From Pseudomonas mosselii (GTDB lineage: Bacteria > Pseudomonadota > Gammaproteobacteria > Pseudomonadales > Pseudomonadaceae): a stretch of 64,000 nucleotides of DNA. The notes beneath the pieces were generated by a model. The model saw only the letters and a list, made by a program, of their open reading frames with translations. It made no database searches and was not told the DNA's origin. The DNA is taken from positions 124,001-188,000 of the forward strand of contig NZ_VAUO01000002.1 in NCBI RefSeq assembly GCF_005796105.1. Direction: 5' to 3'. The translations under genes and the position numbers were made by a program. Shown one piece after another: positions 21,951 through 35,713 of the stretch. Positions within the stretch are counted from its first letter, which is position 1. Each line of letters opens with the position of its first letter.

Positions 21951-23243
21951 ATGGACCTGCAACGATTCTCGCGCGATGCCTTCGACCTCTGGGGTACCCT
22001 CGACCAACACCCGCTGCTGCACGCCGCCATCGGCCTGAGCGTGCTGCTGCTGGTCTCGCTATTGATCGGCCGCGTGGCACGCTTTCTGGTGCTGCATGCC
22101 TGCCGCCTGCTGGCTCGCCAACCCGCGCTGCGCTGGCTCGAAGACCTGCGCCACAACAAGGTGCTGCATCGCCTGGCCCAGACCACCCCGTCGCTGGTGG
22201 TGCAATCGGGCCTGAAACTGGTGCCGGAGCTGTCCAACACCACGCAGCACCTGCTCGGCAACGCAGCGCTGGCGGTCACCCTACTGTTCATGACCCGCGC
22301 CCTGTCGTGCCTGCTCGATGCGCTGCTGGACATCTATGCGCGCACCGAACACGCCCGCACCCGCTCGATCAAGGGCTACATGCAGTTGGCCAAGATGATG
22401 CTGTGGATCTTCGCCGCCATCGTCATCGTCGCCACCCTAATCGACCGCTCGCCGCTGTTGCTGCTGTCGGGTCTGGGCGCCATGTCGGCGGTGCTGTTGT
22501 TGGTGTACAAGGACACGCTGCTGTCGTTCGTCGCCAGCGTGCAGCTCACCAGCAACGACATGCTGCACGTCGGCGACTGGATCGAAATGCCCCAGGCCGG
22601 TGCCGATGGCGACGTGGTCGACATCACCCTGCATACAGTCAAGGTGCAGAACTTCGACAAGACCATCGTCTCCATCCCTACCTGGCGGCTGATGAGCGAG
22701 TCATTTCGCAACTATCGCGGCATGCAGCAATCCGGCGGGCGACGGATCAAGCGCAGCCTGTTCATCGATGCCACCGGCGTGCGCTTTCTGACCCGCGATG
22801 AAGAGCAGCGCCTGGGCCAGGTGCGCCTGCTGGGCGACTACCTGGCCGGTAAGCGCCAGGAACTGCACGAATGGAACCAAGCCCTGGGACCGGTGGCGGA
22901 GCTTTCGGCCAACCGCCGCAAGCTGACCAACATCGGCACCTTCCGCGCCTTCGCCCTGGCCTACCTGAAGAACCACCCCGAGGTACACAAGGGCATGACC
23001 TGCATGGTCCGACAGATGCAAACCACCGCCGAAGGCGTACCGCTGGAGATCTACTGCTTCACCACCACCACGGTATGGGCCGACTACGAACGCATCCAGG
23101 GCGATATCTTCGATTACCTGCTGGCGGTGCTGCCGGAGTTCGGCCTGGGGCTGTATCAACAGCCTAGTGGCAACGATATGCGCGTGGGATTGGCTGGGCG
23201 AGCTGTCGAGCCGGCGGCACAGCGGCTGAAAGAGCTGGAGTGA
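21951..23243 (+). CDS. MscS-family mechanosensitive channel (YbdG-like)
   Basis: 430 residues with about five membrane segments in the first 190 residues. The MscS pore-lining and beta domain core follows: LLLLSGLGAMSAVLLLVYKDTL, then LLSFVASVQLTSNDMLHVGDWIEMP and the VVDITLHTVKVQNFDKTIVSIP block near residue 215-245. The long soluble C terminus fits the YbdG/Ynai-type large MscS relatives, not small MscS. It should release solutes on hypo-osmotic shock from the inner membrane. It diverges from the helicase gene. Confidence 0.9.
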   Translation: MDLQRFSRDAFDLWGTLDQHPLLHAAIGLSVLLLVSLLIGRVARFLVLHACRLLARQPALRWLEDLRHNKVLHRLAQTTPSLVVQSGLKLVPELSNTTQHLLGNAALAVTLLFMTRALSCLLDALLDIYARTEHARTRSIKGYMQLAKMMLWIFAAIVIVATLIDRSPLLLLSGLGAMSAVLLLVYKDTLLSFVASVQLTSNDMLHVGDWIEMPQAGADGDVVDITLHTVKVQNFDKTIVSIPTWRLMSESFRNYRGMQQSGGRRIKRSLFIDATGVRFLTRDEEQRLGQVRLLGDYLAGKRQELHEWNQALGPVAELSANRRKLTNIGTFRAFALAYLKNHPEVHKGMTCMVRQMQTTAEGVPLEIYCFTTTTVWADYERIQGDIFDYLLAVLPEFGLGLYQQPSGNDMRVGLAGRAVEPAAQRLKELE

Positions 23244-23367: not shown

Positions 23368-23673
23368 CTATTCGCTGGCTACCTGCGTGACGATCAGGCG
23401 AGTCAGTTCAGACGATAAGGCCTGAGCATCCGCTTGGTAACCTTCGCACCAGCGCGCGTGCCAATCCAAAGGTGAGCCCTGTTCCTCCCACTGCGCCAAG
23501 GCGAGTGCGTTGACGATCTCCATCTCGAACCAAATAGACTCCCACTTGGCAGCATCCGAGACCAGGGTGGTGTTCTGCCAGACAAACTCCGTCAGCGCCA
23601 CGAAGCTGGACCACGATTTCAGATCCTCGTGCGCGCCACGGGCCAGTGACATGAGCTGCGACGACGTGAGCAT
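23368..23673 (-). CDS. Hypothetical protein, 101 residues
   Basis: The start at ATG 23673 has GGAG eight bases upstream. It is a small acidic, Trp-rich, probably all-helical soluble protein (LKSWSSFVALTEFVWQN, AAKWESIWFEMEIVNALALAQWEEQG) without signal peptide or membrane segment. I do not recognise the family. It diverges from the small lipoprotein gene copy at 23812. The first seven codons and the whole intergenic region are repeated at 34163-34322, where the remainder of the gene is absent. This intact copy is therefore probably the ancestral one. Confidence 0.6.
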   Translation of the reverse strand: MLTSSQLMSLARGAHEDLKSWSSFVALTEFVWQNTTLVSDAAKWESIWFEMEIVNALALAQWEEQGSPLDWHARWCEGYQADAQALSSELTRLIVTQVASE

Positions 23674-24141
23674 TGCTGTTCTCCTATGGCGTAGTTTGAC
23701 TGTCCAAGATTTCGCCAGGCGGCAGGCCAACCAGCGCTTGACCCGCCACCTGAACGCAGATGGCATTTCGAAGTAGAAACCGTCACGTTCGAACTGGAAA
23801 GAGCCGAGACATTGTTGACCCGATTGCTCACCCTGGCCCTAGGGATACTGCTGACTGCCTGCACCCACTACCGCCACATTGCCCCCCCAGACCCCAGAGG
23901 GTCTGGATTGCCTCCACAAACTTGACGCCCAGGTGAATGAGTGCGAGGCCAGGGTCAAAGCACGGCAGGACAACTACGACCGTCTACACGAGTTTCAAGC
24001 ACTCTCCACGCAGCAGTGCGAGCACAACAACCGCCTCAACATACCTAATGCTTGCAAGCCGCCCCACACTCCCACACGTGTGCCTAACGACTGCCGTTCT
24101 GGTTATAAAGACAAATACATAGCCGTGGCGGCAGGGTCGAA
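23652..24141. repeat. Left copy of a 490-bp direct repeat flanking the island
   Basis: This segment matches 34163-34652 with a constant offset of 10511 bases, about 93% identical by eye, with one extra C (near 23882) and one missing T (near 24123) here. It covers the first codons of the 101-residue gene, the divergent interval and most of a small lipoprotein gene. The two copies bracket the AT-rich accessory DNA. Confidence 0.9.
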
Positions 24142-24174
24142 AGGTCGAAAGGTCGAAAGGTCGAAAAAAGCTAG
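23812..24174 (+). pseudogene. Frameshifted copy of the small lipoprotein gene
   Basis: Aligned with the intact gene at 34323-34667. The start here is TTG (GTG there) with a weaker ribosome site. The reading frame opens MLTRLLTLALGILLTACTHY, with the lipobox LTAC. A seventh-C insertion in the C-run near 23882 shifts the frame, and a one-base loss near 24123 shifts it again. The downstream reading frame in the shifted phase still encodes the conserved EGLDCLHKLDAQVNECEAR segment. The 3' end has grown a four-unit octamer repeat in place of the normal GGRVEEVEQ end. It is probably non-functional as a lipoprotein. Confidence 0.75.
24135..24166 (+). repeat. Four perfect tandem copies of GGTCGAAA
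   Basis: The octamer GGTCGAAA is repeated four times without a break. The intact copy at 34646-34660 has only two degenerate units (GGTCGAA, GGTCGAG). This looks like slipped-strand expansion in the frameshifted lipoprotein copy. Confidence 0.9.
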
Positions 24175-24425
24175 TGGCCTCCGGGGACGATCGATTATCG
24201 AAGCATTCTTCAGAATTTCCTTCAAGGAGCCCTGAACGGGGAGTTCAGTTGGTTTGCTGGATACTAGGTCAGTCGACGGCGATAATAATCAAAAATATAG
24301 ATTAATAAATCCAAAAATACATACGAATTCATTCTAAAAATCAATAATTACTCACCTTCTATACACCCCCCACATCACTGCCAGATCCCAGTGAAACACA
24401 CCATAGCGCTTGGCGAGGTGACTTA

Positions 24426-24474
24426 GATGTCGATCAAAATCTAAGAATTGACATTTTAGATTTCGAGCGACATC
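24426..24474. repeat. 20-bp imperfect inverted repeat at the left end of the island
   Basis: GATGTCGATCAAAATCTAAG at 24426-24445 and its near-complement at 24455-24474 (ending CGACATC) are separated by nine bases; the inner AAATCTAA/TTAGATTT part is perfect. It lies in the 300-base AT-rich stretch 24236-24546, which has no gene that I can support. Confidence 0.7.
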
Positions 24475-24546
24475 ATTAAGCCGTTCCGGGTAAGGCCGCC
24501 TAAAAGCGAGCCCCCCAAGGCCCAGGCGACTAGGTTCGGACTAGAC

Positions 24547-24834
24547 ATGAATAGCAAAGTCTCAAGGGGCTCTAAACACCCAGAATTTGAAATCGGGGAC
24601 AGTTTGTCAGCTCACTCAATTACGAAGCGATCAGAGCTGACTGGAATTGCTCCTATTGGCGAACCTAAAGCAGAAAACCCAAATATTGCGACATCTGTAG
24701 AGAGCGAAGATTCAGCAGGCCGAGGCATGGCCTCACCAAAAAAGGAATCATCTCAAACTGACAGTAGTTCCGCCCGCCCTAAATTACAGGATCCGTCCAA
24801 AATTATATGGCGCAGTTTGATGCTAGAACCATAG
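24547..24834 (+). CDS. Possible small hypothetical protein
   Basis: A 95-codon open frame rich in Ser, Lys and Glu (SAGRGMASPKKESSQTDSSS), with no hydrophobic segment and no recognisable family. The upstream sequence has no convincing ribosome site. It is the only candidate between the duplicated locus and the aldo/keto reductase, so it may be a decayed gene or chance. Confidence 0.25.
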   Translation: MNSKVSRGSKHPEFEIGDSLSAHSITKRSELTGIAPIGEPKAENPNIATSVESEDSAGRGMASPKKESSQTDSSSARPKLQDPSKIIWRSLMLEP

Positions 24835-24896
24835 CAAACAAACTAACTTAAAGCAGATAGCCACCAAGTCGCTACCACAAACACCTGGAGATCAAC

Positions 24897-25871
24897 ATGA
24901 ACTATAAAGCTTTCGGAAAGACGGGACTCAGCGTATCTGAGCTTGCTTTAGGCACAGGAAACTTTGGTACTGGCTGGGGCTATGGTGCCGACTACGAGTC
25001 TAGCAAAGCTATATTCAATGCGTACGCCGAAGCTGGCGGGAACTTCATAGATACAGCTGACATTTATCAATTTGGTCAATCAGAAGAGCTACTCGGAACT
25101 TTACTAACAGGAAGACGCGATAGTTTTGTCCTGGCCACAAAATTCACGAATGGTACAGGGCCAAACACTGATCGTTTAGCCACAGGGAACAGTCGCCGGG
25201 CCATGGTGACCTCGGTAGAGGCAAGTCTAAAACGCCTTAAAACGGATCGCATCGATATTTATTGGGCACATCATCCGGATGGGGTAACCCCCCTTGAAGA
25301 AATCATAAGGGGTTTTGAGGACTTGGCACGCGATGGAAAAATTCTTTATGCAGGTCTGTCTAACTTTCCAGCTTGGAAACTCGCGCGTGCAGTTACATTA
25401 GCTGAATTGACAAATTCGTTACCGATTGCAGCAGCGCAGTTTGAGCATAGCTTAGTTCGTCGGGAGCCAGAAGCTGATCTCCTTCAAGCGTCAAATGCAC
25501 TAGGGCTGGGGGTAGTTACTTGGTCTCCTCTAGGCGGTGGAATGCTGACAGGTAAATATAGGCAAGGTGAAAAAGGTCGAGCAGAAGGCTTTGGCGGAAA
25601 GGTTTTCCAAGCAGAGAACTCGGCACAGCGGACACTGATCCTAGACACGGTGCTAGATATCGCAAAAGAACTCGATGTAAGTGCTGGCCAAGTTGCTATT
25701 GCGTGGGCATGCACACATGGAGGAGTCCCCATCATCGGCCCTCGATCCGAGCAACAACTCGCTGACAATCTTGGCGCACTATCCTTCAACCTCTCACATG
25801 AGCAACTCACCAGGCTAAATAGTGCAAGTAGCCTAGAGGGTAATACAGCAGCAGTCTCAATGGCCTCGTAA
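24897..25871 (+). CDS. Aldo/keto reductase
   Basis: 324 residues, ATG 24897 after GGAG. A TIM-barrel NADPH-dependent reductase. The catalytic tetrad is visible as Asp52 and Tyr57 (FIDTADIYQFGQSEE), Lys82 (LATKF) and His125 (IYWAHHPDG), and the cofactor loop as PIIGPRSEQQLADNL near the C terminus. Family members reduce aldehydes and ketones to alcohols in the cytoplasm. It opens the island's rightward gene set. The hydrolase gene follows after 94 bases. A role in reducing carbonyl products made by neighbouring island enzymes is an inference. Confidence 0.92.
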   Translation: MNYKAFGKTGLSVSELALGTGNFGTGWGYGADYESSKAIFNAYAEAGGNFIDTADIYQFGQSEELLGTLLTGRRDSFVLATKFTNGTGPNTDRLATGNSRRAMVTSVEASLKRLKTDRIDIYWAHHPDGVTPLEEIIRGFEDLARDGKILYAGLSNFPAWKLARAVTLAELTNSLPIAAAQFEHSLVRREPEADLLQASNALGLGVVTWSPLGGGMLTGKYRQGEKGRAEGFGGKVFQAENSAQRTLILDTVLDIAKELDVSAGQVAIAWACTHGGVPIIGPRSEQQLADNLGALSFNLSHEQLTRLNSASSLEGNTAAVSMAS

Positions 25872-25965
25872 ATTGTAAAGCCCTTGGCATGGGCCCAAGT
25901 GTGAGAGGCCAACCAAAAGCCTCTCGCACACTGAAATAGAAATGCAATGAGCAGGTACGAAAATA

Positions 25966-26844
25966 GTGAAGTTGTATTTCCAAAGCTATACGCCGAGCGA
26001 CAGTGAGTTCTTAAGGGGCACGGCCTCACATCCAACTATCATAGATGGCGTACTTACGCTGCCACTCCCCGAAAAAAAACCAAGTCCGTTAGTGATTTTA
26101 CTCCACGGCTCTGGTGGTCGCGGGCCCCTGATAAATCAATGGGTAAGAAGACTACAAAAAATTGGCATTGGGACATTTGCAGTCGATAGCTTCACCGGGA
26201 GAGGACTGACCAGTGTAAGAGACAACCAAGACGCCCTTGGGCGCTTGGTAAGCATTATGGATGCGTATAGCGCTCTTGATTTTTGCTCGAAAATGCATGC
26301 CATCGATAAATCTAAAATTGCTGTTATGGGGTTTTCAAGAGGTGGGCAAGGTGCTCTATACGCATCAGTGAAGCGCTTTCAGCGAATGCACCTTTGTACA
26401 AGCCTAACATTCCGTGCATATGTTGCGCTATATCCAAACTGCACCACACGTTACATCGAAGACAACTTACTCGACTGCAAGCCCATCAGCGTTCACCATG
26501 GCGACGCGGATGACTACAACCCTGCGAGTGCAACACAAATATTTTGTGATCGCGCTAAAAGTCGCAACGCTGATATAACATTACATCGGTACGATGACGC
26601 GCATCATGTTTTTGACTGGGACGCGCTTATTCCAGCAAAATTTTTCCCAGAGGCTCAGTCAACCGTGAATTGCCAAGTGGAAGAAATTAGCCCAGGACTT
26701 CTAATTAATGCAAGAACAGGTGTACCTTTCTCCTATAACGACTCCGACGTTATAAAAGGTGCAACTATGGGATTCTCACCTAAGGCAACCAAAAATCTCA
26801 TCATCAAACTCAACGCATTTTTCAAAGAGAATCTACTCAGCTAG
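25966..26844 (+). CDS. Dienelactone hydrolase-family protein
   Basis: 292 residues starting at GTG 25966, with GAGCAGG about ten bases upstream. It has the alpha/beta-hydrolase fold: oxyanion region ILLHGSGGRG (residues 45-53), nucleophile elbow GFSRGG with Ser124, acid in HHGDADD (Asp182) and His213 in DDAHHVFDW. The Ser nucleophile is unlike the Cys of classical dienelactone hydrolase, so esterase or peptidase-like chemistry is as likely as lactone opening. Substrate unknown. It is convergent with the TetR gene, with an 11-base gap. Confidence 0.83.
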   Translation: MKLYFQSYTPSDSEFLRGTASHPTIIDGVLTLPLPEKKPSPLVILLHGSGGRGPLINQWVRRLQKIGIGTFAVDSFTGRGLTSVRDNQDALGRLVSIMDAYSALDFCSKMHAIDKSKIAVMGFSRGGQGALYASVKRFQRMHLCTSLTFRAYVALYPNCTTRYIEDNLLDCKPISVHHGDADDYNPASATQIFCDRAKSRNADITLHRYDDAHHVFDWDALIPAKFFPEAQSTVNCQVEEISPGLLINARTGVPFSYNDSDVIKGATMGFSPKATKNLIIKLNAFFKENLLS

Positions 26845-26855
26845 AACCCCATTAC

Positions 26856-27428
26856 CTAGTTCTTGCTGAGGTATTGAAGCAGTGCATCCCGACACGTCAT
26901 GAGAATTTCATCGGCAAGTGGAGAGTCGTCTGGGCATGCGCGAGACATTACAATTGCCCCTATAGATTGAGCCATAGCAGCTAAGATCTTTGCACGCATT
27001 TGTACTGTCCCAGATTCGCCCTGCTGGGCGGCACTATCTAGGAACTCCTTAATCTGGCTCTCTATTCCATCAGCGAATGTAGCCTTTACTTCAACTTCTT
27101 TGCGAGCAGCATCCCCGCACAGGGCTGCAAGTGTACAACCTGACGCTCGGTGATCTCGATGCTCACGCGATAGATAAGCATTGATGAAGTCAACTAATGA
27201 AGCGCCAGACATAAGATTTGCTGATTTAGTCAGACCACAGGCTGACGCTTGCACCATCAAATCAGCCTTAGACTCGAAATGCTTATAGAAGCCACCTTGA
27301 GTAAACCCAGCAGCCCCCATCAGCTCTGCGATTCCAATTCCGTCATAGCCACGCTCCTTGAAGAGGGCTGATGCCGTCTCAACTATGTGCACGCGGTTTG
27401 CCTGCGCCTGCTTTTTGGTGACCTTCAT
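26856..27428 (-). CDS. TetR-family repressor, probable regulator of the Old Yellow Enzyme gene
   Basis: 190 residues from ATG 27428; GGAG lies five bases upstream of this ATG and only two from the preceding in-frame ATG. The N-terminal helix-turn-helix reads GIGIAELMGAAGFTQGGFYKHFESKADL (split here in two runs: GIGIAELMGAAGF and TQGGFYKHFESKADL). The ligand domain has several Cys residues (SGCTLAALCGDAARK), which could sense electrophiles, as Cys does in NemR of E. coli, where nemR neighbours the OYE gene nemA. It diverges from the OYE gene at 27552. Repression of the island's reductases until an electrophile appears is inferred. Confidence 0.88.
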   Translation of the reverse strand: MKVTKKQAQANRVHIVETASALFKERGYDGIGIAELMGAAGFTQGGFYKHFESKADLMVQASACGLTKSANLMSGASLVDFINAYLSREHRDHRASGCTLAALCGDAARKEVEVKATFADGIESQIKEFLDSAAQQGESGTVQMRAKILAAMAQSIGAIVMSRACPDDSPLADEILMTCRDALLQYLSKN

Positions 27429-27551
27429 CATTGCTCCAGGAGTGGTGTGAAATACGGACATCATACATTGATTATGGTCGACATCAAAGGATTGACATAT
27501 TTAGATGTTGAGCGTAATCATTATGTTCTCACACCCCCTGAGATCCACAAA
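27429..27551. promoter_or_regulatory. Divergent promoter interval of TetR and OYE genes
   Basis: The interval contains a perfect TTGACA at 27492-27497. A TAATCA (27515-27520) follows at 17 bases, and the better CATTAT at 21 bases, so the minus-ten element is uncertain. It would place transcription start about 25 bases before the OYE start. An operator for the TetR protein is expected here, but I see no clean palindrome. Confidence 0.45.
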
Positions 27552-28643
27552 ATGCAGCTAAATCCGCTTTTCGAGCCATATAACCTGGCCAATCTGACAC
27601 TCGCTAACCGCATCGTCATGGCGCCTCTGACACGTAACCGCGCAGGTAAAGGCCTAGCACCCAGCCAGCTCACAGTGGACTATTACGCACAGCGAGCTTC
27701 AGCCGGCCTGATCATTACTGAGGCCACTCAAATATCTCCTCAGGCCCAGGGATACCAAGACACTCCTGGGCTGTACACCGCAGACCAAATCGACGGGTGG
27801 CGGAGGGTCACAGATGCTGTACATGCAAAAGGGGGACGAATCTTTGCCCAACTGTGGCATGTAGGCAGAGTCTCACACACTGACCTGCAACCTGGCGGCG
27901 CAGCACCAGTCGCACCGTCTGGTATCCGCGCGCAGACCAAAACCTTTGTTAATGGTGTGTTCACGGACGTTAGCAACCCACGCGCGCTTGAGTTGAGCGA
28001 ACTGCCACACATCGTGAATGATTTTCGCCAGGCAGCAGCGAACGCTATTACTGCGGGCTTTGACGGAGTGGAAATCCATGGAGCCAACGGCTACTTGATT
28101 GATCAGTTCATCAAGGACAGCGTTAACAAGCGTACAGATACTTACGGCGGATCCATTGAGAACCGCGCGCGTCTTTTGCTTGAAGTTGTAACCGCCGTTA
28201 CCGGTGAGATCGGTGCCGAACGCACTGGTGTTCGAATCTCACCTGTATCACCTGCCAACGACGTCTCCAGCAGCGATCCGCAATCTCAATATGACTATAT
28301 CGCTGACCAACTCAGTGCACTAGGTATCGCTTTTATTCATGTTGTTGAGGGTGCAACAGGAGGGCCACGCGATATCAGCCCCTTCAATTATGAATCACTA
28401 CGCCAACGATTCAAGCAGACCTACATTGCCAATAATGGATATGATCTAGAGCTGGCTACTAGCAGCTTGAGTGAAGATAAAGCAGACCTCTTCGCCTTCG
28501 GCCGCTATTTCATCAGCAACCCGGATCTCGTGGAACGACTGAAGACTGGCTACCCACTCGCGGCAATTGATCCAAAAACTTTATATGGCGGCGGAGCTGA
28601 AGGCTATACCGACTACCCAACCCTCACCACACAAGATCAGTGA
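27552..28643 (+). CDS. Old Yellow Enzyme-family NADH:flavin oxidoreductase (NemA-like)
   Basis: 363 residues from ATG 27552, where the family's normal N terminus begins (QLNPLFEPYNLANLTLANRIVMAPLTRNRA); longer in-frame readings would cross the divergent promoter. This FMN TIM-barrel enzyme has Thr27, the AQLWHVGR strand and the substrate-binding set His176/Asn179/Tyr181 (EIHGANGYLIDQFI). Members reduce activated C=C bonds of enals, enones, maleimides and nitro compounds with NAD(P)H. The divergent TetR gene probably controls it, and the SDR gene follows after 37 bases in the same direction, likely in one transcript. Confidence 0.93.
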   Translation: MQLNPLFEPYNLANLTLANRIVMAPLTRNRAGKGLAPSQLTVDYYAQRASAGLIITEATQISPQAQGYQDTPGLYTADQIDGWRRVTDAVHAKGGRIFAQLWHVGRVSHTDLQPGGAAPVAPSGIRAQTKTFVNGVFTDVSNPRALELSELPHIVNDFRQAAANAITAGFDGVEIHGANGYLIDQFIKDSVNKRTDTYGGSIENRARLLLEVVTAVTGEIGAERTGVRISPVSPANDVSSSDPQSQYDYIADQLSALGIAFIHVVEGATGGPRDISPFNYESLRQRFKQTYIANNGYDLELATSSLSEDKADLFAFGRYFISNPDLVERLKTGYPLAAIDPKTLYGGGAEGYTDYPTLTTQDQ

Positions 28644-28680
28644 ATCATTATATAGTCAACACTTTAATTAGAGGATGAAA

Positions 28681-29469
28681 ATGAACACGCTTCCAACTGT
28701 ACTTATTACCGGCGCATCAACTGGCATCGGGTCTATATACGCGAAACGGTTTGCTAGTCGCGGGCATGACCTCGTACTTGTCGCGAGGGATAAAGCCAGG
28801 CTCGAAAGCCTGGCTGAACAGCTGCGAAAGGATAATTACGTCAACGTCCAAGTACATCAGGCTGATTTGACTGATAGCACAGATCTTTCAGCCGTTGAAA
28901 CTCGTTTGCGAGAGGACGAGAAAATCGGAATTCTAATCAACAATGCAGGTATAGCTCAGTCAGGAGCTTTTACCAAGCAGAGTCCTGCTGATATTGAGCA
29001 GCTAATCTCACTCAATGTAACCGCCCCCACACGTTTGGCCGCAGCAGTAGCACCGCGCTTCTCGCAAGCAGGAGCAGGGGCAATCGTCAACCTAGGTTCA
29101 GTGGTAGGATTTGCACCGGAGTTCGGGATGTCGATTTACGGCGCGACAAAAGCGTTCGTTCTATATCTGTCTCAGGGTCTAAGCCTGGAATTATCACCTA
29201 AGGGCGTATATGTCCAGGCGGTTATACCGGCTGCTACACGTACAGAAATCTGGGAGCGCGCGGGAATTGATATTAATTCAATCGCTGAAGTAATGGATGT
29301 TGAAGAGCTGGTCGATGCTGCCCTCATCGGCTTTGATCGAGGTGAGCTCGTAACCATCCCACCGCTACACGAAGAAGTCAGATGGGATCGGCTTGATCAA
29401 GCACGTCAAGGGCTACTTTCCGACATTCGGCAGTCACATGCCGCCGAGCGTTATAAAGCGAAAGCATAG
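28681..29469 (+). CDS. Short-chain dehydrogenase/reductase
   Basis: 262 residues from ATG 28681, six bases after GAGG; the ATG two codons earlier sits inside that ribosome site. Classical SDR features: TGASTGIG (10-17), NNAG (87-90), Ser140, Tyr153 and Lys157 (YGATK). It should oxidise an alcohol or reduce a carbonyl with NAD(P)H. It is 37 bases after the OYE gene, so the two are probably co-expressed and could act in sequence on an unsaturated carbonyl compound. Confidence 0.91.
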   Translation: MNTLPTVLITGASTGIGSIYAKRFASRGHDLVLVARDKARLESLAEQLRKDNYVNVQVHQADLTDSTDLSAVETRLREDEKIGILINNAGIAQSGAFTKQSPADIEQLISLNVTAPTRLAAAVAPRFSQAGAGAIVNLGSVVGFAPEFGMSIYGATKAFVLYLSQGLSLELSPKGVYVQAVIPAATRTEIWERAGIDINSIAEVMDVEELVDAALIGFDRGELVTIPPLHEEVRWDRLDQARQGLLSDIRQSHAAERYKAKA

Positions 29470-29634
29470 ATAACATCCACTTTATATTTTATGCCTCCTG
29501 CAAGACACAGGGGGCAACAAAGCATTTCTCGAATTTCATTAGAGCGCCCGCTTCACTCAACCAAAAGATACAAATCCAACATGACTCTTAGCATTCATAT
29601 TTAAGGGCCAGGTGCAGCCACAAGGAGTTCAAGT

Positions 29635-30483
29635 ATGCGGCAAGATTATAGTTTCTCATTTGATAGCGCACTCAACAAATCAATATTAGTCGATGGAATC
29701 ACATTCGCCTATCGAGAGCTGGGCAAGAATGATGCACCTCCAATTCTCCTGCTCAACCATTGGGGCGCTACCCTAGATAATTTCGACCCAAACTTGTTAA
29801 ATGGCTTGTCACTAAACCATCGAGTAATCGCCATAGACTATAAAGGTATTGGTCTATCTACTGGTACAGCACCAGTAACGGTATCGGAAATGGCGGACGA
29901 CACAATTTCCTTAGTCCGTGCAATGGGCTTCGAGAAAGTGAATCTGCTTGGTTTTTCATTAGGGGGTTTTGTTGCGCAGGATATAGCGCTGAAAGCACCA
30001 TCGCTCGTGGGGAAGCTAATCCTAGCAGGAACCGGCCCTGCAGGCGGGGACGGCATTGGTAAGGTTTGGTCTGTTACCTGGCCATTAATGATAAAAGGGC
30101 TATTAACTTTTACAGACCCCAAGACTTATCTCTTCTTCACATCAACAAAGAATGGGAAAATTGCTGCCAAAGGGTTTCTAGCTAGACTAAAGCAACGCAC
30201 TCTTAATCGCGATAAGGGGCCCACACCACGCGCGTTTTTCAATCAACTCAGAGCCATAAATTTCTGGGCCAGGCAAGAAAGGTCGGAGCTTAATAAGCTG
30301 CATATGCCTGTACTAATTGTGAATGGTGATAGCGATATCATGGTCCCTACCAAACTTAGCCATGATATGGGACAACGCATCCCTAACTCAGAGGTGGTTA
30401 TTTTTGAGGACGCCGGACATGGGGCAGTATTCCAATACAGCTCGGAATTCCTAGAAAAGGCTTTAAGATTCTTAAGTAGCTAG
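29635..30483 (+). CDS. Alpha/beta hydrolase
   Basis: 282 residues, ATG after AAGGAG. Catalytic parts are visible: nucleophile elbow GFSLGG (Ser108), Asp234 in VNGDSDIMVP and His262 in EDAGHGAVF. The oxyanion strand reads ILLLNHWGAT, with Asn-His in place of the usual His-Gly. No signal peptide. It resembles the large group of carboxylesterase/hydrolase-like proteins such as those cleaving C-C or ester bonds in catabolic clusters; the substrate is unknown. Spacers of 165 and 140 bases on either side leave co-transcription open. Confidence 0.87.
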   Translation: MRQDYSFSFDSALNKSILVDGITFAYRELGKNDAPPILLLNHWGATLDNFDPNLLNGLSLNHRVIAIDYKGIGLSTGTAPVTVSEMADDTISLVRAMGFEKVNLLGFSLGGFVAQDIALKAPSLVGKLILAGTGPAGGDGIGKVWSVTWPLMIKGLLTFTDPKTYLFFTSTKNGKIAAKGFLARLKQRTLNRDKGPTPRAFFNQLRAINFWARQERSELNKLHMPVLIVNGDSDIMVPTKLSHDMGQRIPNSEVVIFEDAGHGAVFQYSSEFLEKALRFLSS

Positions 30484-30623
30484 TTAGTCATGCACACCTT
30501 TAAGAAAACTCAACAAGCTGGACACATACAGCGCCGTCAATAAAATCTTATAAAGACATATAAAAGAACAAAGCCTTCTGCAAGACCAGAACAAAAATTA
30601 TTGTCTCAAACGGGAGAAAGCTG

Positions 30624-31541
30624 ATGTTTGATAACTTTGAACACTTGCGTATCGACACTGGCGAGCTGGAGATATCATGCGTGGTAGCTGGAGTAGGCGC
30701 ACCTATCCTACTACTACATGGTTTTCCGCAAACCATGGCAATTTGGGCAACTATCGCTCCTGCCTTAGTTAAGCTTGGCTACCAAGTTATATGTGCGGAT
30801 TTGAGGGGCTATGGAGCATCTGACAAACCATGTGCGAGTGTCGAGTATAAAAACTACAGTTTTCGCTGCATGGCTGCCGATCAGATTAAAGTAATGCAGG
30901 CGTTGGGCCACAAACATTTTCACGTCATAGGACATGATAGAGGTGCTCGTGCAGCCTATCGCTTGGCATTAGATAACCCTGAGATGATTTCCAGCCTCAC
31001 CATTATGGACATCGTTCCAACAGATGTATTGCTAAAAGACATACGCAAGGACGTTGCGCAAAGCTACTGGCACTGGTACTTCCTAGCGCAGCCCGCTCCT
31101 TTCCCAGAACAAATCATCCTTAAGGATCCTGATTATTTTTTTCAGGCCTGCCTTTTCGGATGGGGTGGTGCTAGTGAGGCTGACTTCAATCCTGAGCAGC
31201 TTGCTGCCTATCGAGAAAGCTGGCGAAACCCGAAGACAGTTTCAGGTTTTTGCAATGACTACCGCGCAACATTAGCTATAGACTTTGATCATGACATAGC
31301 CGATCAGGGCCGAAAAGTTAGCACCCCCACTTTGGTAATGTATGGTGAAAATTCAGTAATGGCTAGACTTTATGATATTCCGAGCGTTTGGTCAGAGCGC
31401 TGCTCCGACTTAAAATCGGCGGCAGTACCGGGAGGCCACTTCTTCCCAGACTCGTCTCCAGCAGCAGTAGTAGAGCGACTGCATGAGTTTCTAAAAACCA
31501 AAATTAAATATAGACAACCATTAAAAACTTGCCAGACTTGA
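30624..31541 (+). CDS. Fluoroacetate dehalogenase-like haloacid hydrolase
   Basis: 305 residues, ATG after GGGAGA. Alpha/beta-hydrolase fold with an Asp nucleophile: Asp105 in GHDRGAR, acid Asp129 (MDIVPTDV) and His272 (GGHFF). Carboxylate-binding Arg106 and Arg109 are present, and so are the fluoride-pocket residues His150, Trp151 (YWHWYF) and Tyr213 (NDYRA), plus HGFPQ at 32-36. As I recall, these match Asp104/Arg105/Arg108/Asp128/His149/Trp150/Tyr212/His271 of the Burkholderia FA1 enzyme shifted by one, and the Asp105/His272 numbering of Moraxella DehH1. The reaction would be fluoroacetate (or chloroacetate) plus water to glycolate and halide. No fluoride exporter is seen nearby. Confidence 0.88.
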   Translation: MFDNFEHLRIDTGELEISCVVAGVGAPILLLHGFPQTMAIWATIAPALVKLGYQVICADLRGYGASDKPCASVEYKNYSFRCMAADQIKVMQALGHKHFHVIGHDRGARAAYRLALDNPEMISSLTIMDIVPTDVLLKDIRKDVAQSYWHWYFLAQPAPFPEQIILKDPDYFFQACLFGWGGASEADFNPEQLAAYRESWRNPKTVSGFCNDYRATLAIDFDHDIADQGRKVSTPTLVMYGENSVMARLYDIPSVWSERCSDLKSAAVPGGHFFPDSSPAAVVERLHEFLKTKIKYRQPLKTCQT

Positions 31542-31950
31542 CTCTCAACCCTTAAGCACTCATCCATTAAACTTGAAGCTCACGAGAGCTTTGAAAAACT
31601 GCACATAACTGTGTGTCGGCGACAGGCGCATGAATGCCTTGAGTTCTCTGACAGGCCTAACAGCTCCTGCTGCCGGACTACAAGAAAGGTAATCCAGAGA
31701 GTAGTCATTACGCACATATAGCCTTTGAATTAGTGCGGGCAAATATAATGACTACTGCGATCATCTACATCTTGAACATTGTTTAAGACCCAAGGCAAGG
31801 CGTCTGATCAATATCTACACAGATCTAAACTATAACCATAACACGGGGAACTTTAGCTTCCCTTTTTCGGCGTCTTATCGAGTCGGGAGCAAGGTTCGAT
31901 CCGCCTCCTGCACAGGCTAACGCCCCCCTGAAGAAACCTCTCAGCCCCAC
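31542..31950. other. Intergenic stretch without a supported gene
   Basis: 409 bases between the dehalogenase-like gene and the convergent reductase gene. Open frames here are short and without ribosome sites. No clear intrinsic terminator was found. A tRNA T-loop-like string (GGTTCGATCC, 31893-31902) lacks matching stem arms and is not called as a tRNA. Confidence 0.5.
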
Positions 31951-32952
31951 TCACTTCATCTGTACAACAACCTTGCCTTTCGCTCGTCCCTGGGCGAGAT
32001 AGCTTAGCGCTTCCTTGACATCCTCGAAAGCAAATACCTTGTCAATAACCGGCTTAATCGAACCAGCACTGATAATGGCTGCTATCTCTTTGAGCTGAGC
32101 ACCGTCGGGGCGAACAAATAAGAATGAATAACTTACTCCGCGTTTCCTGGCAAGCCTCTTGGTCCTCCAGCCCATCAGAGCAAATATGAATTTAAAAATG
32201 AAGCTCATCCCGCGCTTTTCGGCGAAGGCGCTGTCCAATGGGCCAATGAGAGAGACGATTTTTCCACCCGCCCTGACAACACTAATAGACCGCTCAAGTT
32301 CATCGCCTCTGACTGTACCAAGAACCAGATCATAAGACGCCAGAACATTTTCGAATTTTTGTGATCTGTAATCGATTACTTCATCAGCCCCCAGGCTACG
32401 TACCAGACCAGTATTTACAGCACTGGTAGTTGTTGCAACCCTAGCGCCTACATACTTAGCTAGCTGAATAGCGAAAGTCCCAATACCACCTGAGCCTGCA
32501 GGTATGAATATCTTCTGACCTGCCTCCAGATTGGCGCGCTCTGTCAAGGCTTGCCACGAAGTCAGGCCAACCATAGGCACAGAAGCTGCTTGTACAAAAC
32601 TTAGGCTCTCTGGCTTATGGGCAGCTGCAAACTCAGGTACAGCCGCAAAGTCAGCAAGGGTTCCCACACCCAGGTCGAATACACTGGCAAACACTTCGTC
32701 GCCAACCTTGAATTTCGTCACGGCACTGCCCACGCTGACAACGACACCAGCAACATCGCTGCCCATAGTAGCCGGCATTTCGAACTTCAATACTTCTTTA
32801 AATATACCGGTAGGAATCATATTATCAATAGGATTCAGCCCCACCGCATAAACCTCAACCAGAAGCTCGTTCGATTTGATCGATGGCTTAGCGACTTCCG
32901 AAAACCCAATATCAGGAGCCTTTCCATAGCGTTTAAAAGTCAAAGCTTTCAT
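31951..32952 (-). CDS. Zinc-independent medium-chain NADP-dependent oxidoreductase (quinone reductase-like)
   Basis: 333 residues with a GroES-like N-terminal domain (LLVEVYAVGLNPIDNMI, then GSDVAGVVVSVG at 64-75) and a Rossmann domain with AGSGGIG at 152-158. No structural or catalytic zinc cysteines are present, which places it with quinone oxidoreductases and enoyl reductases. It should use NADPH to reduce quinones or alpha,beta-unsaturated ketones. It is read leftwards, 93 bases downstream of the SDR gene at 33046-33789, probably in one transcript. Confidence 0.9.
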   Translation of the reverse strand: MKALTFKRYGKAPDIGFSEVAKPSIKSNELLVEVYAVGLNPIDNMIPTGIFKEVLKFEMPATMGSDVAGVVVSVGSAVTKFKVGDEVFASVFDLGVGTLADFAAVPEFAAAHKPESLSFVQAASVPMVGLTSWQALTERANLEAGQKIFIPAGSGGIGTFAIQLAKYVGARVATTTSAVNTGLVRSLGADEVIDYRSQKFENVLASYDLVLGTVRGDELERSISVVRAGGKIVSLIGPLDSAFAEKRGMSFIFKFIFALMGWRTKRLARKRGVSYSFLFVRPDGAQLKEIAAIISAGSIKPVIDKVFAFEDVKEALSYLAQGRAKGKVVVQMK

Positions 32953-33045
32953 ATAAATAAAACTCCAATCCCTCTTCGATACTCTCTATCGAATAGACAA
33001 ACGACCTACAGATCGCTAAATTTTGGCCATATCGATACAGAAAAA

Positions 33046-33789
33046 CTACCAGTTTTCCTTATACGGCCTGATATCGAGTTCTTGAGTCCACGCGGAGCGT
33101 GGCTGCCGGTGCAACATCCAATAGTTCTCAGCTATTGCTCCATATCCCAACAACCCATCCGACCCAAGAGCCTCTACCATGGCCGGGGCAGCATTGCGCA
33201 GTCGGTCCCCCAGGATGCCGCCATCGATCACCACATGAGCGACATGAATACCCTTAGGCCCATACTCGCGTGCCATGCTCTGGGAGATCATTCGCAATCC
33301 CGCCTTGGCAGCGGCAAAGTGGGCAAAGCCAGGCTTGCCCCTCAAGCTTCCTGAAGCACCGGTAAAAATCAAGGTACCCCGCCCCAGAGGAACCAGGCGC
33401 CTGGCAGCTTCTCTACCAACCAGAAAGCCGGAGTAACAGCCTACTCGCCAAAAATTTTCAAACTGGCTGGCCGTGAGCTGAGTGAAATCGATCAGGGCAT
33501 TATTGCCCGCGTTGAAGATCACGACGTCGGCAGGAGCTCGGCCCGTGCCTGGAGACATCGCAAGATCAAACGCTGCGATGACTTGCTCTTCGACAGTGAC
33601 ATCGGTCTGCAACGCTTCCGCGCTCCCGACCTCGGAGCTCCGAATATCTGCAACTACTTCCTGGATCTTTTCCAAGGTTCGGCCTGTGAAAATGACGTGA
33701 TACCCCTCTTGGGCAAAACGCTTACAGACAGCTCCCCCTACGCCTCGGGTCGTACCTACGCCAAACACTATTGCAGTCGGTTGACTCAT
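33046..33789 (-). CDS. Atypical short-chain dehydrogenase lacking the catalytic tyrosine (SDR_c10-like)
   Basis: 247 residues from ATG 33789, which has GGAGTGGG upstream; a GTG three codons earlier is less likely. It has the SDR fold with a modified cofactor motif (FGVGTTRGVGGAV) and FNAG at 92-95. The YxxxK motif is altered: Phe158 stands where the catalytic Tyr should be, with Lys162 kept (HFAAAKAG). The conserved SMAREYGPKGIHVAHVVIDGGI block matches the SDR_c10 subgroup, described as lacking that Tyr. Activity as a normal dehydrogenase is therefore doubtful. First gene of the leftward pair on the island's right side. Confidence 0.88.
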   Translation of the reverse strand: MSQPTAIVFGVGTTRGVGGAVCKRFAQEGYHVIFTGRTLEKIQEVVADIRSSEVGSAEALQTDVTVEEQVIAAFDLAMSPGTGRAPADVVIFNAGNNALIDFTQLTASQFENFWRVGCYSGFLVGREAARRLVPLGRGTLIFTGASGSLRGKPGFAHFAAAKAGLRMISQSMAREYGPKGIHVAHVVIDGGILGDRLRNAAPAMVEALGSDGLLGYGAIAENYWMLHRQPRSAWTQELDIRPYKENW

Positions 33790-34162
33790 AAATCCCACTC
33801 CAGACAGTGAAGGCGTTAACCGGTCACGTTGACCAAAGCAATTGATACAAAGGCATTTGCTTTCGACGTAGGGTTACATGAAGCGCCGGCTCCGGCCGCC
33901 CATAAAATTTGGTCCGGACTTTGCGCATGAATTTATGATGTCAATCACAATCAAAAAAGTCAACATTAAAGATTATGATCGGAATCAAAACGTGCTTCTG
34001 GCTGCACTGCCAACTGCGGAATGCCGAAAAATCAGGATCATGGATGCATGGCCGGGCGCCAGGCATATGGTAATCGTAGGGTTTTTTAGAAGCCCTCAAA
34101 CCTCACAGAAACGCCCAGATAGGACGCCCGGTGAGTCGGCAGCGTTATCCCGAAAAGGTTGG
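33790..34162. other. Intergenic stretch at the right end of the island
   Basis: 373 bases between the atypical SDR gene and the right direct repeat. It should hold the promoter for the two leftward reductase genes. A 95-codon frame at 33878-34165 begins MKRRLRPPIKFG but has no ribosome site, no family resemblance, and runs into the repeat. I do not call it a gene. Confidence 0.5.
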
Positions 34163-34184
34163 TGAGCTGCGACGACGTGAGCAT
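34163..34184 (-). pseudogene. Seven-codon remnant of the 101-residue gene
   Basis: ATG 34184 and the next codons (MLTSSQL) equal the start of the intact gene at 23368-23673, including the upstream AGCAGAACAGCA region. Similarity stops abruptly at 34163, where island sequence begins. This marks the exact right-hand junction of the duplicated segment. Confidence 0.8.
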
Positions 34185-34652
34185 TGCTGTTCTGCTATGG
34201 CGTAGTTTGACTGTCCAAGATTTCGCCAGGCGGCAGGCCAACCAGCGCTCGACCCGCCACCTGAACGCAGATGGCATTTCGAAGTCCAAACCGTCACGTT
34301 CGAACTGGAAGGAACCGCGACTGTGTTGACCCGATTACTCGCCCTGGCCTTGGGGATATCGCTGACTGCCTGCACCCACTACCGCCACATTGACCCACAG
34401 ACCCCAGAAGGTCTGGATTGCCTCCACAAACTTGACGCCCAGGTGAATGAGTGCGAGGCCAGGGTCAAAGCACGGCAGGACAATTACGACCGTCTACACG
34501 AGTTTCAAGCGCTCTCCACGCAGCAGTGCGAGCACAACAACCGCCTGAACATACCTAATGCTTGCCCACCGCCCCCCACTCCAACACGTGTGCCCAACGA
34601 CTGCCGCTCTGATTATGAAGACAAGTACATAGCCTGTGGCGGCAGGGTCGAA
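34163..34652. repeat. Right copy of the 490-bp direct repeat
   Basis: The direct counterpart of 23652-24141, in the same orientation. It contains the beginning of the 101-residue gene, the divergent interval and most of an intact small lipoprotein gene. Its outer flank (from about 34653) passes into typical GC-rich backbone. Confidence 0.9.
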
Positions 34653-34667
34653 GAGGTCGAGCAATAG
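34323..34667 (+). CDS. Small Cys-rich lipoprotein, hypothetical
   Basis: 114 residues from GTG 34323 with AAGGAA eight bases upstream. Residues 1-16 are a signal peptide ending in the lipobox SLTAC (acylated Cys17). The mature part is hydrophilic and helical, with several Cys (DCLHKLDAQVNECEAR, TQQCEHNN, NACPPPPTP, NDCRSDYEDKYIACGG), suggesting disulfides in the periplasm. The family is not recognised. It is the intact member of a duplicated pair; the other copy at 23812-24174 is frameshifted. The gap 34668-34840 contains no gene that I can support. Confidence 0.65.
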   Translation: MLTRLLALALGISLTACTHYRHIDPQTPEGLDCLHKLDAQVNECEARVKARQDNYDRLHEFQALSTQQCEHNNRLNIPNACPPPPTPTRVPNDCRSDYEDKYIACGGRVEEVEQ

Positions 34668-34840
34668 CTGATGGCCTGCATCTGAAGATCAGCGAAGCGC
34701 GATACCTGTTTTACCGTTCGCCTCGCGAGAAGTTCAGGATCCACACATCAGATCGCGATTCAGCGCTGAATGTGCATTGGCTTGGCGGCGCGGGTCACAC
34801 GCCCCCGAAGCTGGCCTGAAAACGCGTCGTCGGCAGCGCC

Positions 34841-35713
34841 TCAACGCGATGCCGACACGCCCCTGCCCTGCACGCCCAAGCGGCTCAGCCACACCGACGC
34901 CAGGATGATCCCCCCGCCCACGGCAAGCCGCCCCAATGGCTCGTCCTGGTTCCAGATCAACAGGTTCAGCAGCAGCCCCACCGGCACATGCAGGTTGTTC
35001 ATCACCGCCAGCGTGGCGCCGGAAACCAGGCAGGCACCTTTGTTCCACCAGTACAGCCCCAGCGCGGTCGGGCACAGGCCGAGGAACAGCAGCACCAGCC
35101 ATTGGGTGTCGGTGCTCGGCAAGTGCTGGGCGTTGCCGAACAGCAGGAACGCAGGCAACGCGACCAGCAGCGCACCCAGATAGAAGTAGCCGAAACGCCG
35201 GTAGTGCGGCAGGTCGCTGGGGTGGCGGGCGACGAGATGGCGGTACAGCACCTGGCCGGCGGCATAGGTGAAGTTGGCCAGTTGCAGCAGCAAGAAGCCC
35301 AGGAAGAACTCGCCAGTGACGCTGTCGAAGCGGATCACCGCAGCACCGGCCACCGCCACCAGCGCGGCCAGCAGTGCCCAGGGGTTGAAGCGCCGGTTCA
35401 GGGCGTCTTCGATCAGCGTGACATGCAGCGGCGTAAGGATGGTGAACAACAGCACTTCCGGCACCGTCAGCACCCGGAAGCTCAGGTACAGGCAGACATA
35501 GGTGATGCCGTACTGCAAGGCGCCGATCAACAACATCGAACGCATGAAGCGTGGCTCGACCTGGCGCCAGCGGGTCAGCGGCAGGAATACCAGCAACGCC
35601 AGCGCCACCCGCGCCAGCACCGCGAAGTAACTGTCGACATGGCCGGCCAGGTACTCGCCGATCAGGTTGAAAGAATACGCCTGGATCAGCGCGACGATTA
35701 TCAGGTAGCCCAT
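34841..35713 (-). CDS. EamA/DMT-family transporter
   Basis: 290 residues, ATG 35713 after GAGAGG, with ten hydrophobic segments in two EamA repeats (about 1-130 and 145-280). The second half includes LGLCPTALGLYWWNKGACLVSGATLAVMNN (two runs), typical of the carboxylate/amino acid/amine exporter branch. Inner membrane; substrate unknown. It is the first backbone gene right of the island and lies leftward, with its promoter in the 35714-35820 interval. Confidence 0.87.
   Translation of the reverse strand: MGYLIIVALIQAYSFNLIGEYLAGHVDSYFAVLARVALALLVFLPLTRWRQVEPRFMRSMLLIGALQYGITYVCLYLSFRVLTVPEVLLFTILTPLHVTLIEDALNRRFNPWALLAALVAVAGAAVIRFDSVTGEFFLGFLLLQLANFTYAAGQVLYRHLVARHPSDLPHYRRFGYFYLGALLVALPAFLLFGNAQHLPSTDTQWLVLLFLGLCPTALGLYWWNKGACLVSGATLAVMNNLHVPVGLLLNLLIWNQDEPLGRLAVGGGIILASVWLSRLGVQGRGVSASR

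Follow-up and report, generated by a model that had tools for sequence, protein, structure and literature searches.

The window, by which we mean the whole 64,000-nucleotide stretch of Pseudomonas mosselii DNA analysed here, carries a gene for a protein of the fluoroacetate dehalogenase (FAcD) family, confirmed as a member of the FA1/DehH1 branch, on an inserted and horizontally acquired island of ~10 kb. We consider it likely that this gene encodes a working 2-haloacid dehalogenase of the haloacetate/fluoroacetate type that forms part of an acquired set of genes dealing with reactive compounds. Few enzymes other than FAcDs are able to hydrolyse C–F bonds, and FAcDs are being engineered for organofluorine clean-up. 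The enzyme belongs to a known family; its neighbourhood is the part that a specialist may not expect. The gene is located as follows:

30624–31541, forward strand: FAcD-family alpha/beta-hydrolase, predicted 2-haloacid dehalogenase, 305 amino acids, nucleophile Asp105

The open reading frame is complete with an ATG start, and its translation has FA1 as the best solved match (1y37, phmmer E 5.4e-102), with Alr0039 (3qyj), 9c9f, DAR3835 (8sdc) and RPA1163 (3r3u) as the other top solved matches. Identity amounts to 49% over 290 columns with FA1 and to 51% with DehH1 of plasmid pUO1. The protein stays below the cut-offs of the haloalkane dehalogenase NCBIfam models (NF002938, 67.2 of 241 bits; NF002043, 57.8 of 265; NF002873, 23 of 466). 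The alignment recovers all eight residues that the sequence-only reading had named, and these make up the arrangement typical of FAcDs: (i) the Asp–His–Asp triad D105/H272/D129, (ii) the carboxylate-binding pair R106/R109, and (iii) the halide pocket H150/W151/Y213. Their numbering equals that of DehH1, for which Asp105, His272, His150, Trp151 and Tyr213 are given in a passage of PMC12955510; FA1, which had been said to agree as well, is offset by one residue.

These residues had also been taken to define C–F-cleaving enzymes, a claim that the wider alignment does not support. It holds 66 other family rows, namely 62 reading frames from fetched loci and four PDB sequences. All eight residues are present in 58 of them, a count to be read with the selection of the reading frames as best matches in mind, and the full set is likewise found in 18 of 18 aligned Pseudomonas paralogues of other clades. 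Since the eight residues are common to the whole family, their presence alone does not mark an enzyme as C–F-cleaving, and we rejected the signature as non-discriminating proof of defluorination. The eight rows short of the full set have T at position 129 (one row) or W (six) or P (one) at position 150; the replacement of His150 in the halide pocket by Trp (L035, L036, L046, L047, L048, L051) represents a natural variant.

Within Pseudomonas the close clade is rare. DNA matches to the gene were obtained in 6 of 398 genomes, the window's own included; the match in G415 covers just 54 bases of another paralogue, so that the carriers by DNA match are the own genome and 4 of 397 others. The gene has no other close copy in its genome, where the next-best match has E 3.4e-12. 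The family at large is more common than had been supposed: homologues at E ≤ 1e-60 occur in 66 of 398 genomes of a phylum sample (own included), with ~40% identity at most of the listed places and 50–54% at six, and 7 of 369 genomes of a class sample (own included) pass 1e-72.

Pocket residues beyond the signature say more than the eight-residue set. At the four positions compared, the window FAcD has Ser147, Trp180, Val245 and Met246. When the DehH1 pocket was randomised and selected on 2-fluoropropionate, Trp180 and Met246 were kept and Ala or Val was favoured at position 245, and the variants Q245A and Q245V exceed the wild type on fluoroacetate and 2-fluoropropionate, according to the sections of PMC12955510 consulted. 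Both of the kept residues are present in the window FAcD, which matches the Q245V lab variant at all four positions; its five closest relatives (L021, L024, L025, L026, L057) have Ala245. Met246 is described as critical in one section of PMC12955510 and as not essential in another, and it is not family-wide, DAR3835 having Val at 246. The combination of Phe34, Trp180, Met246 and all eight signature residues occurs in the window FAcD and in 11 of the 66 rows, and these 11 all belong to the FA1/DehH1 clade. The window's Trp151 is the counterpart of FA1 Trp150, which a passage of PMC11022551 reports as needed for C–F but not for C–Cl cleavage.

An AlphaFold model based on 18 alignment rows (mean pLDDT 91.3, pTM 0.91) has the FAcD-type alpha/beta-hydrolase fold with a cap, and its top PDB matches are FA1, Alr0039, DAR3835 and RPA1163. 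Comparison with FA1 in complex with fluoroacetate (3b12) yielded TM 0.94/0.97 and an rmsd of 1.0 Å, and a second comparison a Z of 47.6 and 1.1 Å over 294 residues. Fold and ligand pocket are no proof of turnover, since FAcD-like proteins with bound monofluoroacetate (4b9e, 4bau) carry the PDB title ‘putative epoxide hydrolase’. In a 75-row tree, which includes three long outgroup rows and whose bootstrap was not fully settled (0.970), the window FAcD is sister to a P. palleroniana homologue (99/86). Together with proteins from three more Pseudomonas and from a Rhizobium etli plasmid, the two form a 6-row clade (100/99), nested in an 18-row clade (100/99) that contains FA1, DehH1 and Rhodococcus plasmid proteins. 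Active enzymes bracket the window FAcD, since Table 2 of PMC11022551 records defluorination for Alr0039 (=NOS0089), DAR3835 and RPA1163 and all three branch outside the 18-row clade. Of the 18 Pseudomonas paralogues, a separate clade unites the 17 with His34/Arg180; the last (L002) is placed by itself close to the FA1/DehH1 clade, though weakly supported (83/57).

The island and its surroundings comprise the following features, where G317, G341 and G369 denote further Pseudomonas genomes with an FAcD homologue:

24149–34162, no strand assigned: low-GC island between repeats, ~10 kb
23652–24148, forward strand: left direct repeat (93% identity with its right counterpart), small lipoprotein-like frame broken
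34163–34660, forward strand: right direct repeat, intact lipoprotein-like ORF 34323–34667
23368–23766, reverse strand: small gene
24897–25871, forward strand: aldo/keto reductase (AKR), not found near relatives' FAcD
25966–26844, forward strand: dienelactone-hydrolase-like protein (DLH), not found near relatives' FAcD
26856–27464, reverse strand: TetR-family regulator, oriented divergently from OYE
27549–28643, forward strand: old yellow enzyme/ene-reductase (OYE), NemA-like, start set at the Met of MQLNPLF
28675–29469, forward strand: short-chain dehydrogenase (SDR1), 69–83% identical to copies near FAcD homologues
29635–30483, forward strand: alpha/beta hydrolase (ABH, PF00561), with 64–69% identical homologues near FAcD in G369, G317 and P. 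palleroniana
31951–32952, reverse strand: QOR-type medium-chain reductase (QOR), sharing 70% identity with its P. palleroniana counterpart and 48–49% with those of G317 and G341
33046–33798, reverse strand: second short-chain dehydrogenase (SDR2), no shared place near relatives' FAcD

GC content is 48.4% between 24125 and 34162 as compared to 63.6% and 63.2% in the flanks, and the direct repeats of ~0.5 kb are 93% identical over 499 columns. The insertion site lies between MscS, which ends at 23243, and EamA (34841–35713). We surveyed this site in the loci of 14 relatives (L089–L102) out of 35 matching the right flank. The matched parts of MscS and EamA are just 54–220 nt apart in 10 of the 14 loci, from which the island is therefore absent; ~1.2 kb separates the two genes in L097, and no MscS match was obtained within the stretch compared in L091, L092 and L095. 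Larger stretches of three relatives (L110, L111, L116) again revealed the empty site; the 9 kb taken from G003 contained no MscS match. With the site empty in 10 of 14 loci and filled by ~4.2 kb of other DNA in G009 (L113), it is possibly an insertion hotspot. Low GC, direct repeats and the empty site in relatives thus substantiate the transferred island proposed from the sequence alone.

Pfam recognised no integrase or transposase in eleven ORFs, and the small ORFs 24547–24831 and 33878–34162 gave no Pfam match, so that an integrase remnant was not borne out. The presence of flanking copies of a segment that differ by 7% suggests that a circle may have integrated by homologous recombination, a route that would require no integrase. 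We rejected a plasmid origin, as the plasmid collection held no near DNA match of 23600–34700, and a tRNA attachment site, as ARAGORN found no tRNA in the window. The longer OYE frame (27471–28643) scores 406.9 against the NF007899 cut-off of 403.

The genes around FAcD recur in its other carriers. TetR, OYE and SDR1 are located 2–11 kb from FAcD in all five Pseudomonas carriers, the window included, ABH (at least 64% identity) is nearby in four of the five, and so is QOR in four, though not in the same four. In G369 the order is TetR, divergent OYE, SDR1, ABH, another medium-chain reductase and FAcD, and the window shows the same order minus that reductase; identities to the window are 76% (OYE), 69% (SDR1), 64% (ABH) and 61% (TetR). 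G341 has TetR (53%), OYE (70%), SDR1 (69%) and QOR (49%) beside FAcD, and more distant hydrolases that are less alike (37%, and 50% over 195 residues). G317 has TetR (57%), OYE (75%), SDR1 (70%) and ABH (64%), with OYE ~6 kb from FAcD and QOR (48%) adjoining it. P. palleroniana has TetR (70%), OYE (82%), SDR1 (83%), ABH (69%) and QOR (70%), with OYE 10 kb from FAcD, other genes in between, and TetR 11 kb from it. The Rhizobium etli 8C-3 plasmid carries TetR (50%) and a partial OYE (68%) ~8 kb from FAcD. Of the 198 other Pseudomonas genomes sampled, just 38 contain an OYE of the window type (E ≤ 1e-130, 70–83% identity), and its linkage to FAcD in all four other carriers is therefore not expected by chance. 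The gene-set reading draws on these five Pseudomonas genomes and one Rhizobium plasmid. The literature search found no paper combining fluoroacetate dehalogenase, Pseudomonas and a genomic island, nor, among the 15 of 66 matching papers listed, a title naming this gene set; it is solely on account of this search, judged partly by titles, that we call the neighbourhood unrecognised.

Further genes were observed near the homologues. EphB-like epoxide hydrolases are located near FAcD in G317 and G369 (L062, 6221–7282, and L125, 11956–13050; ~1 kb and 7 kb away), so the gene set varies. A further cluster, common to P. palleroniana and G341, adjoins the FAcD region (L123, 4264–8956; L126, 6–6767); it comprises a FadL-type porin, a GMC oxidoreductase, an SCP2-like protein and a distant OYE and hydrolase, which hints at a hydrophobic substrate. 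An ORF of transposase type (rve and HTH_21; L060, 13017–13655) lies ~3 kb from FAcD in G369 and fits a mobile neighbourhood. Among the Rhodococcus plasmid FAcDs of the larger clade, L059 is near genes annotated as carbon–nitrogen hydrolase and aldoxime dehydratase and L082 near an aliphatic amidase, neighbours that might supply haloacetamides or haloacetonitriles to the dehalogenase.

We infer activity and substrate from the sequence, the predicted fold, the tree and the residues. The enzyme very probably removes the fluorine or chlorine of small acids, for example fluoroacetate; 2-haloacid dehalogenase activity is expected to be real, and we would count with good confidence on turnover of fluoroacetate in vitro. 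Arg106 and Arg109 would hold the substrate carboxylate while Asp105 attacks the alpha carbon in an SN2 reaction and His150, Trp151 and Tyr213 hold the leaving halide; His272, aided by Asp129, would then activate a water molecule for hydrolysis of the Asp ester, releasing the 2-hydroxyacid. In the cell, the enzyme may work within the acquired set of TetR, ene-reductase, SDR, hydrolase and QOR on reactive unsaturated or halogenated small molecules, a role to which we assign even chances. Fluoroacetate would be one possible substrate and not the reason for keeping the gene set.

Fluoroacetate as the natural substrate was implied by the sequence-only reading. A dedicated gene for fluoroacetate catabolism or resistance, acting on the compound from plants or actinomycetes and permitting growth via glycolate, would agree with the eight residues and the tree position. 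The genome also contains two glcD genes above the curated cut-off and, on a contig other than the window's (C2), a single CrcB fluoride exporter, which makes glycolate use and fluoride export possible. The neighbourhood argues against such a function. On pUO1, a methyltransferase and a thioesterase precede dehH1 with CrcB nearby, and the same kinds of gene surround the FAcD of Caballeronia S22, where a passage of PMC11812338 describes them as conferring fluoroacetate and fluoride resistance. None of the nine island proteins scanned is an aconitate-type methyltransferase, a fluoroacetyl-CoA thioesterase or CrcB, and the island thus lacks the composition of such a utilisation cluster. Single-sequence searches across 19 loci matched the pUO1 thioesterase and methyltransferase in pUO1 itself only, and CrcB in pUO1 and, weakly (E 7.5e-4), in a P. 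palleroniana HxlR-regulator frame. A search of the window's genome, run without a positive-control genome, gave no match to the pUO1 thioesterase. No Rfam family reached its gathering score in the window, the fluoride riboswitch included. As the partners of the DehH1/S22 type were not found and a different gene set recurs, fluoroacetate as the natural substrate is not supported, and we regard a dedicated fluoroacetate gene as unlikely.

An epoxy acid or another non-halogenated compound could instead be the main substrate of a relative of Cif-like epoxide hydrolases, with dehalogenation as a side reaction. FAcDs are closely related to Cif-like epoxide hydrolases with a His–Tyr pair, as stated in a part of PMC8244358, residues 32–35 (H-G-F-P) are a form of the epoxide hydrolase motif H-G-X-P, and the match to 4bat, a ‘probable epoxide hydrolase’ of P. 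aeruginosa, reaches E 2.5e-59. All epoxide hydrolases other than 4bat match at 1.7e-28 or weaker, however, as compared to 1e-59 to 1e-102 for FAcD-like chains, and Trp180, Val245 and Met246 fit a haloacid pocket. A 37-row tree, which includes EphB (2e3j), 6unw and two EphB-like sequences as four epoxide-hydrolase rows and leaves out Cif-like enzymes and 4bat, recovered both the 6-row and the 18-row clade (100/99 each) and separated these four at 100/100 from the 33 rows of the FAcD family. The window FAcD groups with FA1 and DehH1 in both trees, and the clustering with epoxide hydrolases that the sequence-only reading had named as a refutation did not appear with the four included in the 37-row tree. 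A main function on an epoxy acid or another non-halogenated compound is in our judgement decidedly improbable. The broken lipoprotein frame of the left repeat and the failure to recognise a mobility gene in the ORFs tested might point to a stranded island on which FAcD is a passenger, silent or decayed. This is barely credible, as the FAcD frame is intact, none of the eight family residues is missing, and TetR, OYE, SDR1, ABH and FAcD follow one another as in G369, there with one extra reductase before FAcD. As a whole, the sequence-only reading retains its FA1/DehH1 homologue, in keeping with tree, residues and model, and its acquired island; the residues as defining, the rarity and the substrate are not supported.

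Within the favoured reading of a 2-haloacid dehalogenase serving the acquired gene set, a more specific and rather doubtful proposal is that TetR, ene-reductase, SDR, hydrolase, QOR and FAcD constitute an unrecognised ‘reduce, then hydrolyse’ organohalide route. The ene-reductase or QOR-type reductase would convert a 2-haloacrylate-like compound to a 2-haloacid, which FAcD would convert to a hydroxyacid such as lactate and halide. A 2-haloacrylate reductase and a haloacid dehalogenase occur in Burkholderia sp. WS (passage in PMC6100074), ene-reductases act on alpha-fluoroenoates (passage in PMC13182226), and the pocket with Val or Ala at 245 resembles that of DehH1 variants active on 2-fluoropropionate. 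Irrespective of this route, the recurrent neighbours provide a testable clue to the role of FAcDs where fluoroacetate is not the substrate, and the residues of an improved lab variant are seen to occur naturally at the four pocket positions studied.

Comparison with known systems places the window FAcD closest to its P. palleroniana LMG 23076 counterpart (L021; same contig as G193, L123), which has 69–70% identity, is its sister in both trees and differs in having Ala245 and extra genes between module and FAcD (FadL, GMC oxidoreductase, SCP2/HxlR-type, second OYE and hydrolase). DehH1 (FAc-DEX H-1) of Delftia (Moraxella) pUO1 shares the catalytic and halide-pocket residues, Ser147, Trp180 and Met246, but has Gln245 instead of Val245, and its methyltransferase, thioesterase and CrcB neighbours were not found around the window FAcD. 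FA1 of Burkholderia sp. FA1 (1y37, 3b12) shares all eight residues at 49% identity and an rmsd of 1.0–1.4 Å but has Ala147, Leu245 and a numbering shifted by one residue. The common FAcD-like paralogues of Pseudomonas (9c9f-like) belong to the same family with the same eight residues at ~36–40% identity, whereas 17 of 18 have His34/Arg180 in place of Phe34/Trp180. The island resembles, by analogy only, the allicin-resistance islands of Pseudomonas fluorescens PfAR-1, described in a passage of PMC7119367 as low-GC and acquired with old yellow enzyme and redox genes; the PfAR-1 thiol-redox genes dsbA, trx, ahpD, osmC and kefC are absent among the island proteins scanned. ‘Pseudomonas fluorescens’ DSM 8341, a strain noted for its FAcD, has been reassigned to Caballeronia (PMC11812338), which makes it useful to have an enzyme of the FA1/DehH1 branch from a true Pseudomonas.
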